Part shown: piece after piece, positions 5,033-12,603 of the stretch
Layout: every line of letters starts with the position of its first letter
Numbering within the stretch: the first letter of the stretch is position 1
NCBI GenBank assembly: GCA_021789095.1
Contig: JAJYJX010000057.1
Coordinates: forward strand, 1 to 13,155
Direction: 5' to 3'
Origin: a bacterium
Lineage (GTDB): Bacteria; JAMCPX01
DNA: 13,155 nt
The notes under the pieces: generated by a model
The model's input: the letters and a program-made list of their open reading frames with translations, nothing else
What the model was told of the DNA's origin: nothing
Databases searched by the model: none
Position numbers and translations under genes: made by a program

Positions 5033-5077
5033 TCTTTAACCTTTCTTTTTTTCTTTATACTATACACGTTAAATACA

Positions 5078-5100
5078 GAAAATACAGTAAACCCCGTTAG
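5078..5100 (+). repeat. 23-bp direct repeat, copy A
   Basis: This 23-bp stretch, ending in AGTAAACCCCGTTAG, matches 6729-6751 at 22 of 23 positions (C5085 versus A6736). It directly borders the long inverted repeat at 5101-5213. Copy B borders a different structured element, so this looks like the shared end of a dispersed repeat family. It may also supply upstream promoter DNA for mazG. Confidence 0.75.
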
Positions 5101-5213
5101 CCCGAAAAATGCAATAGGAGAGTTTGCTCATGCGCTCGGGGTACTCATCTGGGAGATGGGCACCCCTTCGCTCATTACTTAAACTCCCCTATTTCTCAAA
5201 CGTATTTTCCGGG
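5101..5213. repeat. 113-nt imperfect long inverted repeat in the mazG-Kelch intergenic region
   Basis: The two halves fold back on each other. 5101-5110 pairs with 5204-5213 at 9 of 10 positions. 5113-5125 pairs with 5181-5193 at 12 of 13. GGGGT at 5138-5142 pairs with ACCCC at 5162-5166. 5144-5150 pairs with 5154-5160 around a GGG loop. It occupies the 240-bp gap 5033-5272, which has no convincing gene. There is no T-run next to it on the minus strand, so it is not a classical intrinsic terminator for the Kelch gene. It may be a non-autonomous mobile repeat, or a structured RNA element in the 3' region of the lipoprotein transcript. Confidence 0.7.
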
Positions 5214-5272
5214 TCAGAAAAGATTGTAACTCAGCTTATGGTCTGCGGGTATCTGTCTTAAGCAAAACAGGG

Positions 5273-6871
5273 TTATGGATTGTAGATTTCTGCTGTGTCA
5301 GGGAACGTTATGTCAATAGTTAACGGATTTATTGCGGAGAAACCAGAGACTATCAGGGCGGAGCCGTCCTGCAGATTCTGGGCTGTATAACCTGCACGTG
5401 GGATAGAAAGTGACGGGTATTTTACAAAGGATTTCGATACAGGGCTGAATACCTCTGCCGAACATGTCGGTGTAAAAACAGGCGTGGTTATACCGCCGGC
5501 AATCAGGACATTCCCGTCACCCAGGAGGATATCAGAGAACAACGCACGGGGTAAAGTCATGCTGTAATAACTGTGAACAACCCTGTTAAAAGGGTCTATA
5601 AGCATCAACTGTGAAACCGGCTGCCAGTATGCATTAACCCCGCCGTTGACAAGGATCTCTTCTTCGTCGTGTATAAATGCTGAAGACGGAAAATAGGTTG
5701 TACAGGTAATATTGTTTGACAATGTAAACCCGGATAACTGGAAAAACTCGGCATTGCTGCCAGCACTATTTCCGCATGCCAAAAATACTTCATCATCGGA
5801 ATAAACGACAGTGGTCTGGAATGACCTTGCAAAAGACATTGCGTATGTAGCAAACTTGCCTGTTTTTATGTCTACAAGTTCAGCACTGTTTGCAGAGCGG
5901 TTTGTGCTTATGCCTCCTGAAATGAGCAAGGTGTCCCCTGTTAAAATATCAGCCGTATGCCCAGCTCTCGGCATGGTTAATGTCAGTCCTTTATAAAAAT
6001 TGTCCGATACAGGATCATAAACTTCTATCGATGTTTTCGTGTGTTCCCCAGGTACAGTTATAGAGCATGCAGTCATGTTGCAGTTTATATTTACAATATC
6101 CGTACCTCCGATAACCGCAATACTGCCGTCGGACAATGCATTCGCAGTAAAGAAAACCCGCGTCTCGGTCATTTGCGGCCCCGGGCTGAACGTGCCTGTT
6201 TTGGGATCGTAGCGCTCTGTTTGCGACGTTGCATTGTATTGGACACATCCCTGCCCACACGGCGACTGCCCTTTTACAATACCTCCCATTATTATATAGG
6301 TGCCGTCTGGCAGCTGGCTTGATACTGCAAACGCCCTTGGTATGGGTTTCGATTCAAGCCGTGTGAAGACACCTGTCCCGGTTATAAGTGTATCAACATT
6401 ATTTACACTACCAGCTATGATCCTGATCCCTGTCGTCTTGCCCCTTGCAATAACAGCACCGGATGCGTCCTTCACCTCTACACCGACAGTGCGGTTATAG
6501 CCTTCGGGTATGCCGTTGATGGTTACACCGGAAGGGTTTGCTGCAACACTTACATCCTTAACAATGGGACTGAAGTCTTTGCCGGTTATTGTGATTATAA
6601 CATTATCGGCATGCTGCGGCAGGCTAAGGGTATTCAGCACAGTAACAGGCTGCGGTGGTATAGAATGGATACTCAAGCTTATACTGCCATCTGTCCGTGA
6701 GCCTGAACACCCACAGATAACAAACAAGGAAAATAAAGTAAACCCCGTTAGAAAGGATGTGGCTTTGAACCACACCCTTTCTATAAAGCATTTAAATACT
6801 ATCCCATTATCGCCGCCATACATAGCGGGGCTTTCTGACGGGATAAAAACTGAAACTTTATGCAGACGCAT
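5273..6871 (-). CDS. Kelch-repeat (seven-blade beta-propeller) lipoprotein
   Basis: This 532-aa predicted exported lipoprotein has a hydrophobic stretch at residues 40-54 ending in ICGC, which gives a lipidation cysteine at C55. Residues 62-165 look like a beta-sandwich domain. Seven Kelch-type motifs follow, near residues 177, 236, 300, 347, 394, 440 and 490; several open with PRA and each ends in a hydrophobic strand with GG, CG or SG. Seven motifs fit one seven-bladed propeller. The binding partner is unknown. The ATG at 6871 has GAAGAG about 7 nt upstream and lies 12 nt after the stop of the upstream NHL gene, so the two probably form an operon. The first 35 or so residues before the hydrophobic stretch are odd: residues 10-43 are encoded by a 99-bp repeat element. 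Alternative starts are ATG at 6823 and GTG at 6775, the latter with AAAGG too close. Confidence 0.82.
   Translation of the reverse strand: MRLHKVSVFIPSESPAMYGGDNGIVFKCFIERVWFKATSFLTGFTLFSLFVICGCSGSRTDGSISLSIHSIPPQPVTVLNTLSLPQHADNVIITITGKDFSPIVKDVSVAANPSGVTINGIPEGYNRTVGVEVKDASGAVIARGKTTGIRIIAGSVNNVDTLITGTGVFTRLESKPIPRAFAVSSQLPDGTYIIMGGIVKGQSPCGQGCVQYNATSQTERYDPKTGTFSPGPQMTETRVFFTANALSDGSIAVIGGTDIVNINCNMTACSITVPGEHTKTSIEVYDPVSDNFYKGLTLTMPRAGHTADILTGDTLLISGGISTNRSANSAELVDIKTGKFATYAMSFARSFQTTVVYSDDEVFLACGNSAGSNAEFFQLSGFTLSNNITCTTYFPSSAFIHDEEEILVNGGVNAYWQPVSQLMLIDPFNRVVHSYYSMTLPRALFSDILLGDGNVLIAGGITTPVFTPTCSAEVFSPVSKSFVKYPSLSIPRAGYTAQNLQDGSALIVSGFSAINPLTIDITFPDTAEIYNP
6729..6751 (+). repeat. 23-bp direct repeat, copy B
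   Basis: This matches 5078-5100 at 22 of 23 positions. Here it lies inside the Kelch lipoprotein gene, where its complement encodes about residues 41-48 of the hydrophobic signal region. It overlaps the left end of the 99-bp element described separately. Confidence 0.75.
6744..6842. repeat. 99-bp structured element with terminal inverted repeats, inside the Kelch gene 5' end
   Basis: The ends CCCGTTAGAAAG (6744-6755) and CTTTCTGACGGG (6831-6842) are inverted repeats matching at 11 of 12 positions. Inside are two further hairpins. The arms 6749-6762 and 6770-6783 pair at 13 of 14 positions with a 7-nt loop. The arms 6813-6818 and 6823-6828 pair with loop TACA. The layout resembles a miniature mobile or REP/BIME-like palindromic element. 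It carries no gene of its own, and the lipoprotein frame stays open across it. No target-site duplication was identified. Confidence 0.6.
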
Positions 6872-6882
6872 AAAAGGCTCTT

Positions 6883-9800
6883 CTATTGAAGGACAATCTC
6901 TTTTATTTGTTTATCAGCGGTATCCGATACAAACAGATTACCGTTCCCGTCAAATGCAATGCCAAAAGGCGAAGCGACACTTGCAAATGGCAGCACCGTG
7001 CCTGCAGGGTCGCTTCTATAAACTATGCCGGCAGCTTGATCGGTAATATAAAGATTGTGCTGATCGTCGAGAGCGAGCCCCATTGGCAATATAAATCCTG
7101 AAGCAAATACACTTACCCCGCTGCCCTGAACCACCTTTGCAATTGTACCATTATGGTTGTTTGCAGCATAGAGATTGCCCGGTGAAAGGAAGGCAGCACC
7201 CATTGGTCCAGAAAGCCCTACTGCAAATGTTGAAACAACCCCTGAAGAAGTAACAATGGATACTGTATTGTTAAGATAGTTCATCACATAATAAAGATTG
7301 TTGGTATTATCTGCTGCAATGCCGGTAGGACCGCTGAACCCTGAAGCAAACACGTTTACATTATTGCCGGATATTCTCAGCAGTGTTCCATCGAGGAAAT
7401 TGGTCAACAGCACATTCCCTGCATTATCAAACGCAAACCATGATACCGAAGTAATACCAGATGCAAAGGTTGTAATTGTATCAATACTGCTTATACGATA
7501 GATACTATTATTGCTGCTGTCAGACGCATAAACAAAGCCATCATTGCCTCTTACCATTGCTTCCGGTGCATTCAAGCCAGATACATAGCCACTCACCGTA
7601 TGAATTAATCTGTATATTTTACCGTCTGATTCACTTGCAACATACAAACCTCCACTTTCATCAATAGCTATACCTGTAGGGTTTTGTATACCTTTAGCAA
7701 AGACACCTGCTCCATTTGCCGGAGTAACAATCGAGACAGAATTACCTCCATAATTTGATACGAACAATTCACCTTTACCATCAAGCTTTATATCCGACGG
7801 CATACTGAATCCCGATGCGTATGTTGTCGTTACTGTACCTGCTGCTGTAACCATGGATATTGAATTACCGGCACTATTGGCTATATACACATTGCCATTT
7901 GCATCCAATGCGATTCCCTCTGGCTTATACCCTACCGATGCAAAAAAGTATCTTTTGCCATCCGATGTCGCTGTAAACACAATGCCAATATGATCGGTTA
8001 CATATAATAGCCCTGCCTGGGGGCTGAATGCAATACCCCATGGGGTAAAAAAGAAAGATTGTATAGAGCATCCCCCGAATACAGAAGCATTACCAGTATA
8101 TGTTATAGATGAAATATAATACCCTGCCAATGAAGATATAGACGGAGCTACAAATAGATTATTCTGAAACCCCGTTGTTATGCCTTTGGGACTAATGATA
8201 TGTGAAGCAGTACAGGCAGATCGATCAAGCGGGTTTATAAATGGTAATACACGTCCTTCCGTGGTTACCATGGAAATAGAACCGCCGCCTGTAGCTTCAG
8301 AGCCTTGGTTTGCTACAAACATTGTACCGGATGTACTGAATGTAATACCCCATGGCTTGTAAAAACCCTGCGCATAAACCTGGAAGCTGTTGTTGACCTT
8401 TGATATTGAATTGGTGTCATGGTTTGCAGCATATACAGACCCATTGTTATCCATCACCAGTCCAAAAGGATCTGATAAACCCACTGCATAGGTAAAAGTA
8501 GACCCAGACAATGTGACTTCCCTGATTACATTGTCATTGGATGTAACATAAAGGCTATAATCGCTATCACTTATAATATAACGAGGCGAGACAAGGTTTG
8601 AGACAAAGGTCGAAACAACTCCCATAAGATCTACAACCGCTATGGTTCCATTTCCATTATTTACAACCTTAAATGTCTTCCCTCCAGATGGCCCTGTAAA
8701 TACAATGCCCATGGGTTTATTCAAGCCTGTAGCAAAGGTAGATACCGCATCGTTCAGATCAACCTTTGATATGGTATTGTTCCCGTAATTCGTCACATAC
8801 GTATTGCCTGCATCGTCAAAGGCAATGCCAGCAGGCATGGAAAAGCCCGATGCAAAGGTATAGCCTGTAACAGGATTACCAAGTATAAGCTTCTGAACCG
8901 TTCCATCCCCTTCGCATGCAACATAAAGGATTGATGATGGGGCATAGTACAGACCTAAAGGCTTGTTTAAGCCTTTGTATATGGTTGTTTGTGTGAGTCC
9001 ACCGGGCAATACTTTTATAATTGTGCCATCATTGTAATTGGCAACATACATGTTTCCGCTTTCATCCATTGCAAGTCCGGTTGGCTGATTTATGGAGTAA
9101 AATATTTTTGTTACAGTAAAGCCCTGTGCTGATGAGGCAATACCATTCACCGATACAACAACACCTCCTTTAACAGCATTGTCAGGTACCTTTGTCTTTA
9201 TAAGGTTATCAGCCCAGCTTATCACTGTTGCAGGTATCCCTGAAAAGGTAACACTGCTCGTTCCCTGATTTACACCAAATAGATTGCCTGCGATGGAAAC
9301 CTCGTCACCTCTTTCCGCTGTATCCGGCGAAAGAGACGTTATTGATGGATGTAATGTTAATGGAATCCCGTTGCTCACGTTGTTATTTACAACCACATTG
9401 ATCATGCCCGTTGCCGCATGGGTAATATTGCCGACAGCCGCGGTTATATGATTGTTTGACCATGCTGAAACAGGCAATACAGTGCCGGCATAGTCTACTG
9501 TACTGCCTCCCTGGTTCGTACCGAACCCTGTACCCTGGATCATCATAACATCGTTGAGCATTACATCGGCTTTGTCTATACCGGATAAAAACGGCATGAC
9601 AGTAAAGTCCTTTGCATTGCTTGTTTTAATACCCGAAACAACGCTTAACTTTACCGTACCTGATGTTATATCCGGAACAATCACTTGTATTTCTGTATCC
9701 GACCATGCGCTGGCAGTGATTTCTATATCACCAAATTTCACGGTCCCCTGTGTCGAACCAAAACCAGAACCGCTGAGCACTATACCGGTATCCGCATATC

Positions 9801-9948
9801 CTGTTCCAGGACTCACGTCATTTATAGTAATATTGTTGGAGCTATTATTGCCTGACCGTGCATCTGATGCGCTGTGCTTGTCAGAACATCCGGCTATTGC
9901 TGTTAAAAAAACTAAAAATACCGCAAACAAGCCTTGCTTCATACCCAT
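6883..9948 (-). CDS. Large lipoprotein with three IPT/TIG domains and 18 NHL-like repeats
   Basis: This predicted exported lipoprotein has 1021 aa from the chosen start. A hydrophobic signal (LFAVFLVFLTA) ends in lipobox AIAGC with C21. Three IPT/TIG immunoglobulin-like domains follow, at about residues 42-117, 120-199 and 201-279, with motifs such as GTGFGTNQG. From about 285 to the end come 18 NHL-type repeats, typically P-x-GIAFD-x-x-GN-x-YV-x-N then ISKV. Eighteen repeats would make three six-bladed propellers. An in-frame ATG exists at 9960, but GGAGG (9958-9954) lies inside that reading and is spaced 5 nt from the ATG at 9948, so 9948 is preferred. Such proteins are usually surface or periplasmic binding scaffolds; streptogramin-lyase-like annotations of such repeats are fold-level only. 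The Kelch lipoprotein gene follows 12 nt downstream. Confidence 0.85.
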   Translation of the reverse strand: MGMKQGLFAVFLVFLTAIAGCSDKHSASDARSGNNSSNNITINDVSPGTGYADTGIVLSGSGFGSTQGTVKFGDIEITASAWSDTEIQVIVPDITSGTVKLSVVSGIKTSNAKDFTVMPFLSGIDKADVMLNDVMMIQGTGFGTNQGGSTVDYAGTVLPVSAWSNNHITAAVGNITHAATGMINVVVNNNVSNGIPLTLHPSITSLSPDTAERGDEVSIAGNLFGVNQGTSSVTFSGIPATVISWADNLIKTKVPDNAVKGGVVVSVNGIASSAQGFTVTKIFYSINQPTGLAMDESGNMYVANYNDGTIIKVLPGGLTQTTIYKGLNKPLGLYYAPSSILYVACEGDGTVQKLILGNPVTGYTFASGFSMPAGIAFDDAGNTYVTNYGNNTISKVDLNDAVSTFATGLNKPMGIVFTGPSGGKTFKVVNNGNGTIAVVDLMGVVSTFVSNLVSPRYIISDSDYSLYVTSNDNVIREVTLSGSTFTYAVGLSDPFGLVMDNNGSVYAANHDTNSISKVNNSFQVYAQGFYKPWGITFSTSGTMFVANQGSEATGGGSISMVTTEGRVLPFINPLDRSACTASHIISPKGITTGFQNNLFVAPSISSLAGYYISSITYTGNASVFGGCSIQSFFFTPWGIAFSPQAGLLYVTDHIGIVFTATSDGKRYFFASVGYKPEGIALDANGNVYIANSAGNSISMVTAAGTVTTTYASGFSMPSDIKLDGKGELFVSNYGGNSVSIVTPANGAGVFAKGIQNPTGIAIDESGGLYVASESDGKIYRLIHTVSGYVSGLNAPEAMVRGNDGFVYASDSSNNSIYRISSIDTITTFASGITSVSWFAFDNAGNVLLTNFLDGTLLRISGNNVNVFASGFSGPTGIAADNTNNLYYVMNYLNNTVSIVTSSGVVSTFAVGLSGPMGAAFLSPGNLYAANNHNGTIAKVVQGSGVSVFASGFILPMGLALDDQHNLYITDQAAGIVYRSDPAGTVLPFASVASPFGIAFDGNGNLFVSDTADKQIKEIVLQ

Positions 9949-9953
9949 ATTAT

Positions 9954-9958
9954 CCTCC
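9954..9958 (-). promoter_or_regulatory. Ribosome binding site that sets the NHL lipoprotein start
   Basis: A perfect GGAGG on the minus strand lies 5 nt before the ATG at 9948. It overlaps codons 2-3 of the longer reading that would start at 9960, which argues against the longer start. Confidence 0.8.
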
Positions 9959-9968
9959 ATTAAAACGA

Positions 9969-12447: not shown

Positions 12448-12522
12448 CGGGGCCGACGGGGGTCGAACCCGCGACCTTCCGCGTGACAGGCGGACGTTCT
12501 AACCAAACTGAACTACGGCCCC
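12448..12522 (-). tRNA. tRNA-Asp (anticodon GTC)
   Basis: This 75-nt cloverleaf has acceptor arm GGGGCCG/CGGCCCC, D-stem GTTC/GAAC, anticodon stem TCCGC/GCGGA with loop CTGTCAC, and T-arm GCGGG-TTCGACC-CCCGT. The discriminator base is G, as expected for aspartate. CCA is not encoded; GTTTC follows. It lies 8 nt downstream of tRNA-Val in the same transcription unit. Confidence 0.96.
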
Positions 12523-12530
12523 ATAAAACG

Positions 12531-12603
12531 TAGGCGGAACAGGATTCGAACCTGCGACATCCACCGTGTAAGAGTGGCGCTCTACCAACTGAGCTATCCG
12601 CCT
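12531..12603 (-). tRNA. tRNA-Val (anticodon TAC)
   Basis: This 73-nt cloverleaf has acceptor arm AGGCGGA/TCCGCCT, D-stem GCTC/GAGC, anticodon stem CCACT/GGTGG with loop CTTACAC, and T-arm GCAGG-TTCGAAT-CCTGT. The discriminator base is A. CCA is not encoded. It is the first gene of the tRNA unit, directly after a near-consensus promoter. Confidence 0.96.

Follow-up and report, generated by a model that had tools for sequence, protein, structure and literature searches.

A small repeat bounded by terminal inverted repeats (TIRs) is inserted in frame in the signal peptide of a Kelch-repeat lipoprotein, and the sequences make it probable that the inserted residues are removed with the leader and that the same principle operates in prepilins. 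The lipoprotein gene lies in the window, the whole analysed stretch of 13,155 nucleotides (Table 1). A sequence-only reading of the window had described a 99-bp element with TIRs, in frame in this gene. The element is real and in frame, but its core is 101 bp and the full unit is 105 bp, equal to 35 codons, with TIRs of 13 nt.

Table 1. Features of the window, with positions counted from its first letter
Feature	Position	Strand	Evidence or context
Kelch-repeat lipoprotein gene with in-frame insertion	5273..6871	-	Pfam Kelch_6, E 1.5e-17; orthologues
ATG start 5' of the element	6869..6871	-	SD-like GAAGAG at 6878-6883, 6 nt upstream
Alternative ATG within the element, residue 17	6821..6823	-	AGAAAG upstream
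Host hydrophobic core and lipobox, residues 44-55 (FTLFSLFVICGC), lipid-anchor Cys55	6707..6742	-	lipobox ICGC by eye
NHL/TIG lipoprotein gene, upstream neighbour	6883..9960	-	stop codon 11 nt ahead of the Kelch ATG
Element core, 101 bp, MITE-like palindromic repeat in the Kelch gene	6743..6843	-	BLAST, covariance model, alignment with 25 other copies
TIR at the start-codon end: TCCCGTCAGAAAG; in the consensus, CCCCGTTAGAAAG	6831..6843	-	
TIR, distal end: CTTTCTAACGGGG; encodes F-L-T-G	6743..6755	-	
Direct repeat TTTA, target copy; spans F9 plus base 1 of codon 10	6844..6847	-	
Direct repeat TTTA, second copy; spans F44 plus base 1 of T45	6739..6742	-	
Strong hairpin GAAAGGGTGTGG..CCACATCCTTTC; some two-sided changes in the family keep pairs	6751..6781	-	
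Smaller palindrome CCCCGCTATGTATGGCGG	6813..6830	-	sequence, fold, alignment
Two adjacent tRNA genes	12448..12603	-	between the YggT and GreA genes

The element is one copy of a dispersed family. Other copies had been anticipated in its own genome, and they are there: BLAST gives at least 27 matches, and a covariance model derived from 26 copies gives 59. With up to one mismatch allowed, TIR half-sites number 154, against 13 for a reversed control. The family is present in eight of the nine genomes examined from its phylum and was not found in 51 genomes outside the phylum searched with the same DNA, and shorter elements with the same ends occur sporadically in five genomes outside the phylum. 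As in MITEs, the 101-bp core is short, dispersed in many copies and without a transposase of its own, and TIRs are found across the copies (CCCCGTTAGAAAG/CTTTCTAACGGGG). It differs from REP elements, which are palindromes of 20-40 nt with a GTAG/CGTC tag and an adjacent RAYT; the unit is 105 bp and the consensus ends lack the tag. TTTA stands on both sides of the element and occurs as a single copy in empty pilin sites. Flank covariation of the copies is 72, slightly above shuffles (mean 63.6, maximum 75), and the two flanking TTTA copies could be constant element sequence instead of a duplication. Y1 transposase genes are present in the genome. No element ends were found around them in the expected orientation, so the Y1 transposase was rejected as the mobilising enzyme, and this search, which covered the Y1 family, gave no transposase carrying these TIRs.

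The gene strand folds strongly at the element (z = -5.5), and none of 200 shuffles was equally good. An Rfam search gave no match above the gathering score at the element, sub-threshold sRNA matches there were set aside as chance, and in the window only two tRNAs reach the threshold. A search of a plasmid collection gave no match. The consensus frame FTPLESPAIYGGDNMINFKFLIERAWFKATSFLTGFT is stop-free, and 21 of 25 copies of the 105-bp unit are open in this frame, mostly outside genes; most copies have no long open frame spanning them. A stop-free frame is thus weak evidence for function, and it was dropped as a sign of selection, since the open frame in the window is expected from the family. 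Tandem elements with one common TTTA junction occur at two loci (L173, G000:C107, and L175, G008:C68), and the G000 pair lies between two tRNA-like genes. Downstream of the Kelch gene, positions 5071-5216 of the window hold a second, different repeat-like stretch that begins TAAACCCCGTTAGCCCGAAAAATGCAATAGGAGAGTTT. Similar stretches, ccgagaaatgcaataaggaagtttacttattcgctc close to another element in L166 and TTTACCCCGTTAGCCCC in L237, suggest that there is a further subfamily.

Orthologues of the Kelch gene have short signal peptides and no repeat. Seven records from six genomes (records G002 and L082 appear to be one genome) are 50-65% identical to the window protein, with signal peptides of about 15-25 residues, and none has residues 10-43 of the window protein without the repeat. 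Together with the copies elsewhere in the genome, they bear out the proposal that a stop-free repeat was inserted into signal-peptide codons. The insertion adds 35 residues (10-44) between F9 and T45. Removing one 105-bp unit from the window gene gives MRLHKVSVFTLFSLFVICGC, a normal lipoprotein signal (MRLHKVSVF|TLFSLFVICGC), and the start, the SD-like sequence and the spacing to the upstream gene appear intact in the window gene.

The hydrophobic core of the signal is host sequence, because the strongest hydrophobic 12-mer of the filled leader starts at F44, in the host codons right after the element. The export signal had been thought to begin inside the element; what the element supplies is SFLTG (39-43) and the preceding positively charged stretch (R32, K36) ahead of the core. 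The hydrophobic 12-mer scores 2.57 in the collapsed leader, 2.32 with the insert, and 2.36-3.07 in the orthologues. The filled leader has a long n-region of 40 residues and a core slightly weaker than those of the orthologues. An n-region, a hydrophobic core (FTLFSLFVICGC) and an ICGC lipobox, read by eye, are all present, the lipobox after the element being as normal as had been claimed, and the signals of the orthologues are typical of lipoproteins.

The gene is better read with translation beginning upstream of the element. The sequence-only reading saw a sensible ATG and ribosome binding site there, and the start was placed there because the ATG lies directly behind the stop codon of the NHL gene, as in several orthologues. 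The NHL/TIG gene is the neighbour in several orthologous Kelch loci too, and several orthologues likewise begin close behind it. Of the two outcomes first suggested, a 35-residue extension or an altered start, the extension is therefore preferred. It is unlikely that the element supplies the start as a mobile 5' end, with translation from the ATG at 6823 (or the GTG at 6775) and a signal of 38 (or 22) residues. AGAAAG lies upstream of the ATG at 6823 at a usable distance, MYGGDNGIVFKCFIERVWFKATSFLTGFTLFSLFVICGC would be a plausible signal, and at L014 and L171/L174, too, good leaders would result from internal starts within or next to the element. However, the ATG at 6871 has its own SD-like sequence and lies 11 nt past the upstream stop, much as in several orthologues, while the GTG at 6775 lacks proper spacing from its AGAAAGG. 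In the pilin gene GspG, moreover, the SD, the ATG and the first five to six codons upstream of the insert match those of empty orthologues.

It is distinctly unlikely that the insertion crippled the Kelch gene, and that the gene is now drifting to a pseudogene with a frame kept open by luck. The element splits the original hydrophobic core, and the openness of most copies of the 105-bp unit in the same frame means that an open frame is no proof of use. However, the 490 codons after the element are intact, as are the start and the SD, and the window copy differs from the consensus at 15 of 111 positions, comparable to other copies, so there has already been some time for decay.

The preferred reading is that a non-autonomous element inserted at a TTTA(C) site coding for F-T in the signal peptide and that the lipoprotein remained exportable. 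The insertion would have moved the old n-region (MRLHK) off the hydrophobic core and placed a new charged stretch, ERVWFKATSFLTG, directly before the core. Translation most likely begins at the ATG at 6871 and gives a signal peptide 35 residues longer. Sec would export the protein, Cys55 would receive the lipid, and signal peptidase II would cut at that residue. A cut at this cysteine would remove the element peptide and leave the mature lipoprotein unchanged and presumably working normally. In closely related strains of this species that lack the element, the N-terminus is predicted to be MRLHKVSVFTLFSLFV.

Elements with the same ends are found in the leaders of prepilins. Eight pilin genes of this genome pass the Pfam cut-off, and five of them contain such an element in frame, placed precisely at the prepilin motif G-F-T; about a dozen prepilin-leader elements were counted in all. 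Pilin leaders across the phylum were scanned for a 13-nt inverted repeat plus TTTA across the G-F-T motif, scored out of 17. Twelve leaders score 13-17, and none of 400 shuffles is as good. The filled leaders belong to FimT-like genes (G000, G007), to GspG, GspH and GspJ (G000), to PilW-like genes (G000, G001, G004, G005, G007) and to two near-identical pilins of G008, the gene types being named by the analyst from the N-terminal motif. The insert units are all multiples of three (102-114 bp), which the scan requires and with which the open frames agree. Empty pilin orthologues have background scores. A score of 11 of 17 alone was not trusted, because apparently empty PilA leaders reach it, and the GspG inserts of G001, G004 and G008 were called from SD-ATG spacing instead of the leader score. 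GspI has no insert in eight genomes; its motif is GFS without TTTA, and all eight score at background. PilV has no insert in seven genomes despite GFT, and the site alone is thus not decisive. Since common descent explains the sharing of PilW and GspG inserts among genomes, the independent insertions into pilin genes are perhaps eight or nine.

Several of these leaders have individual features. A pseudopilin of this genome carries an in-frame copy (MKLHRLVKNRGFTPLES...FLTGFTLLEILIS), and G072, from another phylum, has a 33-bp palindromic unit at the same position in a pilin leader. The leader insert of the PilW-like gene of G001 (L221, G001:C33, near 26483-26548) consists of two tandem copies (RMRNALKRLSQRSGLLQKGLADVDGFTPLHLEGSLFGRMRNALKRLSQRSGLLQKGLADVTGFTLVEM). 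The GspJ leader of G004 (L172, G004:C150:6939-6965) shares 20 nt (TTCTAACGGGGTTTACCCTG) with the element end and has no other end upstream; the stretch may be either a deletion remnant or natural sequence that the element end resembles. In G008 (L171/L174, C129 and C208) the open frame of the filled pilin leader also takes in a second common repeat, GTCATTCCCGTGAAAACGGGAATCCAG, on its upstream side. The view that the duplicated GFT reflects ordinary leader duplication or gene conversion among pilin genes, unrelated to the mobile family, draws on the common LHLK...DVT pattern of the PilW and FimT inserts of G000 and on the tandem stretch of the G001 PilW, but it is very unlikely, as the 13-nt TIRs of the inserts are perfect or nearly so, with TTTA flanking them, and the dispersed family itself is matched by the GspJ insert of G000 (covariance model, E 1.7e-9). 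The CCCCGTTACATC subfamily is an example of the pilin-type inserts.

The ends of the element restore the motif that it interrupts. At the near junction, the target GGN TTT ACN (G-F-T) followed by the element reads G-F-T-P-L-E, and at the far junction ...CTA ACG GGG TTT ACN reads L-T-G-F-T. With its terminal ...ACGGGG, the element restores T-G|F-T when it inserts at GGN-TTTAC, and the far junction thus provides a new prepilin motif directly ahead of the mature pilin. The insertion in the Kelch lipoprotein uses the same phase as those in the pilins (VF|T). Prepilin peptidase would cut after the G of the rebuilt T-G|F-T, and the insert would be discarded; such cleavage, like that of the lipoprotein leader, is expected from the known pathways. 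It is proposed that related elements accumulate in prepilin leaders because the rebuilt motif lets the peptidase discard the insert.

Empty and filled sites are seen most clearly in GspG, and their comparison agrees with translation through the insert. Four genomes have an empty site, consisting of GAGGAGG or AGGAGG, an ATG, five or six codons and GFTLIEIMVVV, while in four others, five codons after the same SD and ATG, a 102-bp insert precedes GFTLIEIMVVV. The distance from ATG to GFT is 15 or 18 nt in the empty genes and 117 nt (15 + 102) in the filled ones. G001, G004 and G008 have one old insert in common. Among these three, dN/dS is 0.40-1.02 for the insert and 0.02-0.06 for the mature pilin, and the insert remains open and in frame while its residues drift. 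The inserted peptide appears to evolve nearly neutrally, as expected of a leader that is translated and discarded.

In-frame copies are also found outside pilins. In a secreted protein of G004 (L167) the element lies between MKINLFR and the hydrophobic core (MKINLFR[FTPFET...]LFSLVFLFVTAVKSYA), and a DUF1571 protein (L014) has a copy in the opposite orientation with a signal-like stretch. In another phylum, a 72-bp palindromic unit lies in frame and in the opposite orientation near the start of a polysaccharide deacetylase (L241, G101:C30:232356-232432) and regenerates V-N on both sides (MYHHVNPVRS...SNGVNELPDSF). Copies away from leaders occur, besides this deacetylase, in a metallophosphoesterase (L213), a MacB/FtsX-type permease (L215) and a DUF1858-DUF2249 linker (L235), and strict confinement to leaders was rejected on this account. 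Because in-frame copies occur in mature proteins too, leaders are favoured, by insertion preference or by survival, without being exclusive. It is possible, though doubtful, that the family is adapted to leader peptides and persists cheaply in genes through the rebuilt far-side site and removal by host peptidases. The traits concerned would be a stop-free unit with a length that is a multiple of three and ends giving F-T-P-L-E on the left and L-T-G-F-T on the right.

The wider pattern in pilin leaders is of more interest than the Kelch case alone, and its recurrence could not be seen from the window. Selfish DNA in protein genes may live in the part that is cut off and regenerate the cut site. 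Natural extensions of Sec and prepilin leaders by 35 residues are material for studying how much the export machinery tolerates. Also, genomes with such elements may have wrongly annotated starts of prepilins and lipoproteins.

The element resembles several known repeats without matching any of them fully. Rickettsia palindromic elements (RPE) were reportedly treated by Ogata et al. in 2000. Passages in two papers describe RPE as palindromes of 105-146 bp with TIRs that are tolerated in frame in unrelated genes (PMC2229807, PMC10969869). The present element is likewise palindromic, bounded by TIRs and tolerated in frame in unrelated, otherwise conserved genes (the Kelch gene, pilins, metallophosphoesterase, MacB/FtsX-type permease). 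In contrast to RPE, it belongs to another phylum, and many of its inserts occupy leaders of the cleaved type, where they restore the motif that they break. It is filed as RPE-like and not as RPE, the likeness being to descriptions of RPE and not to an RPE reference sequence. Like Correia/NEMIS, RUP and other bacterial MITEs, it is small, TIR-bounded, non-autonomous and dispersed, with a putative A/T-rich target repeat; unlike in Correia/NEMIS and RUP, its flank is TTTA instead of TA, and no autonomous partner was identified around the Y1 genes. Elements derived from IS200/IS605 insert next to TTAC. The hairpin, the TTTAC at the junction and the Y1 transposase genes in the genome recall these and REP/RAYT systems, but the element has clear TIRs and repeats on both sides, and no element ends in the expected orientation were found around the Y1 genes. 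YPAL/RU-2 and ERIC/RU-1 form open-frame fusions, including pestis YPO1552, in which the element is residues 1-30 of the protein (Delihas 2007, PMC2759123). Here, in contrast, the element lies between the original n-region and the core, and empty orthologues are available. No description of MITEs within prepilin leaders, or of a processing motif being rebuilt, was found in the open-licence literature. Taken by itself, the window feature adds one more case of what is already known; what appears new is that a processing motif is rebuilt repeatedly.
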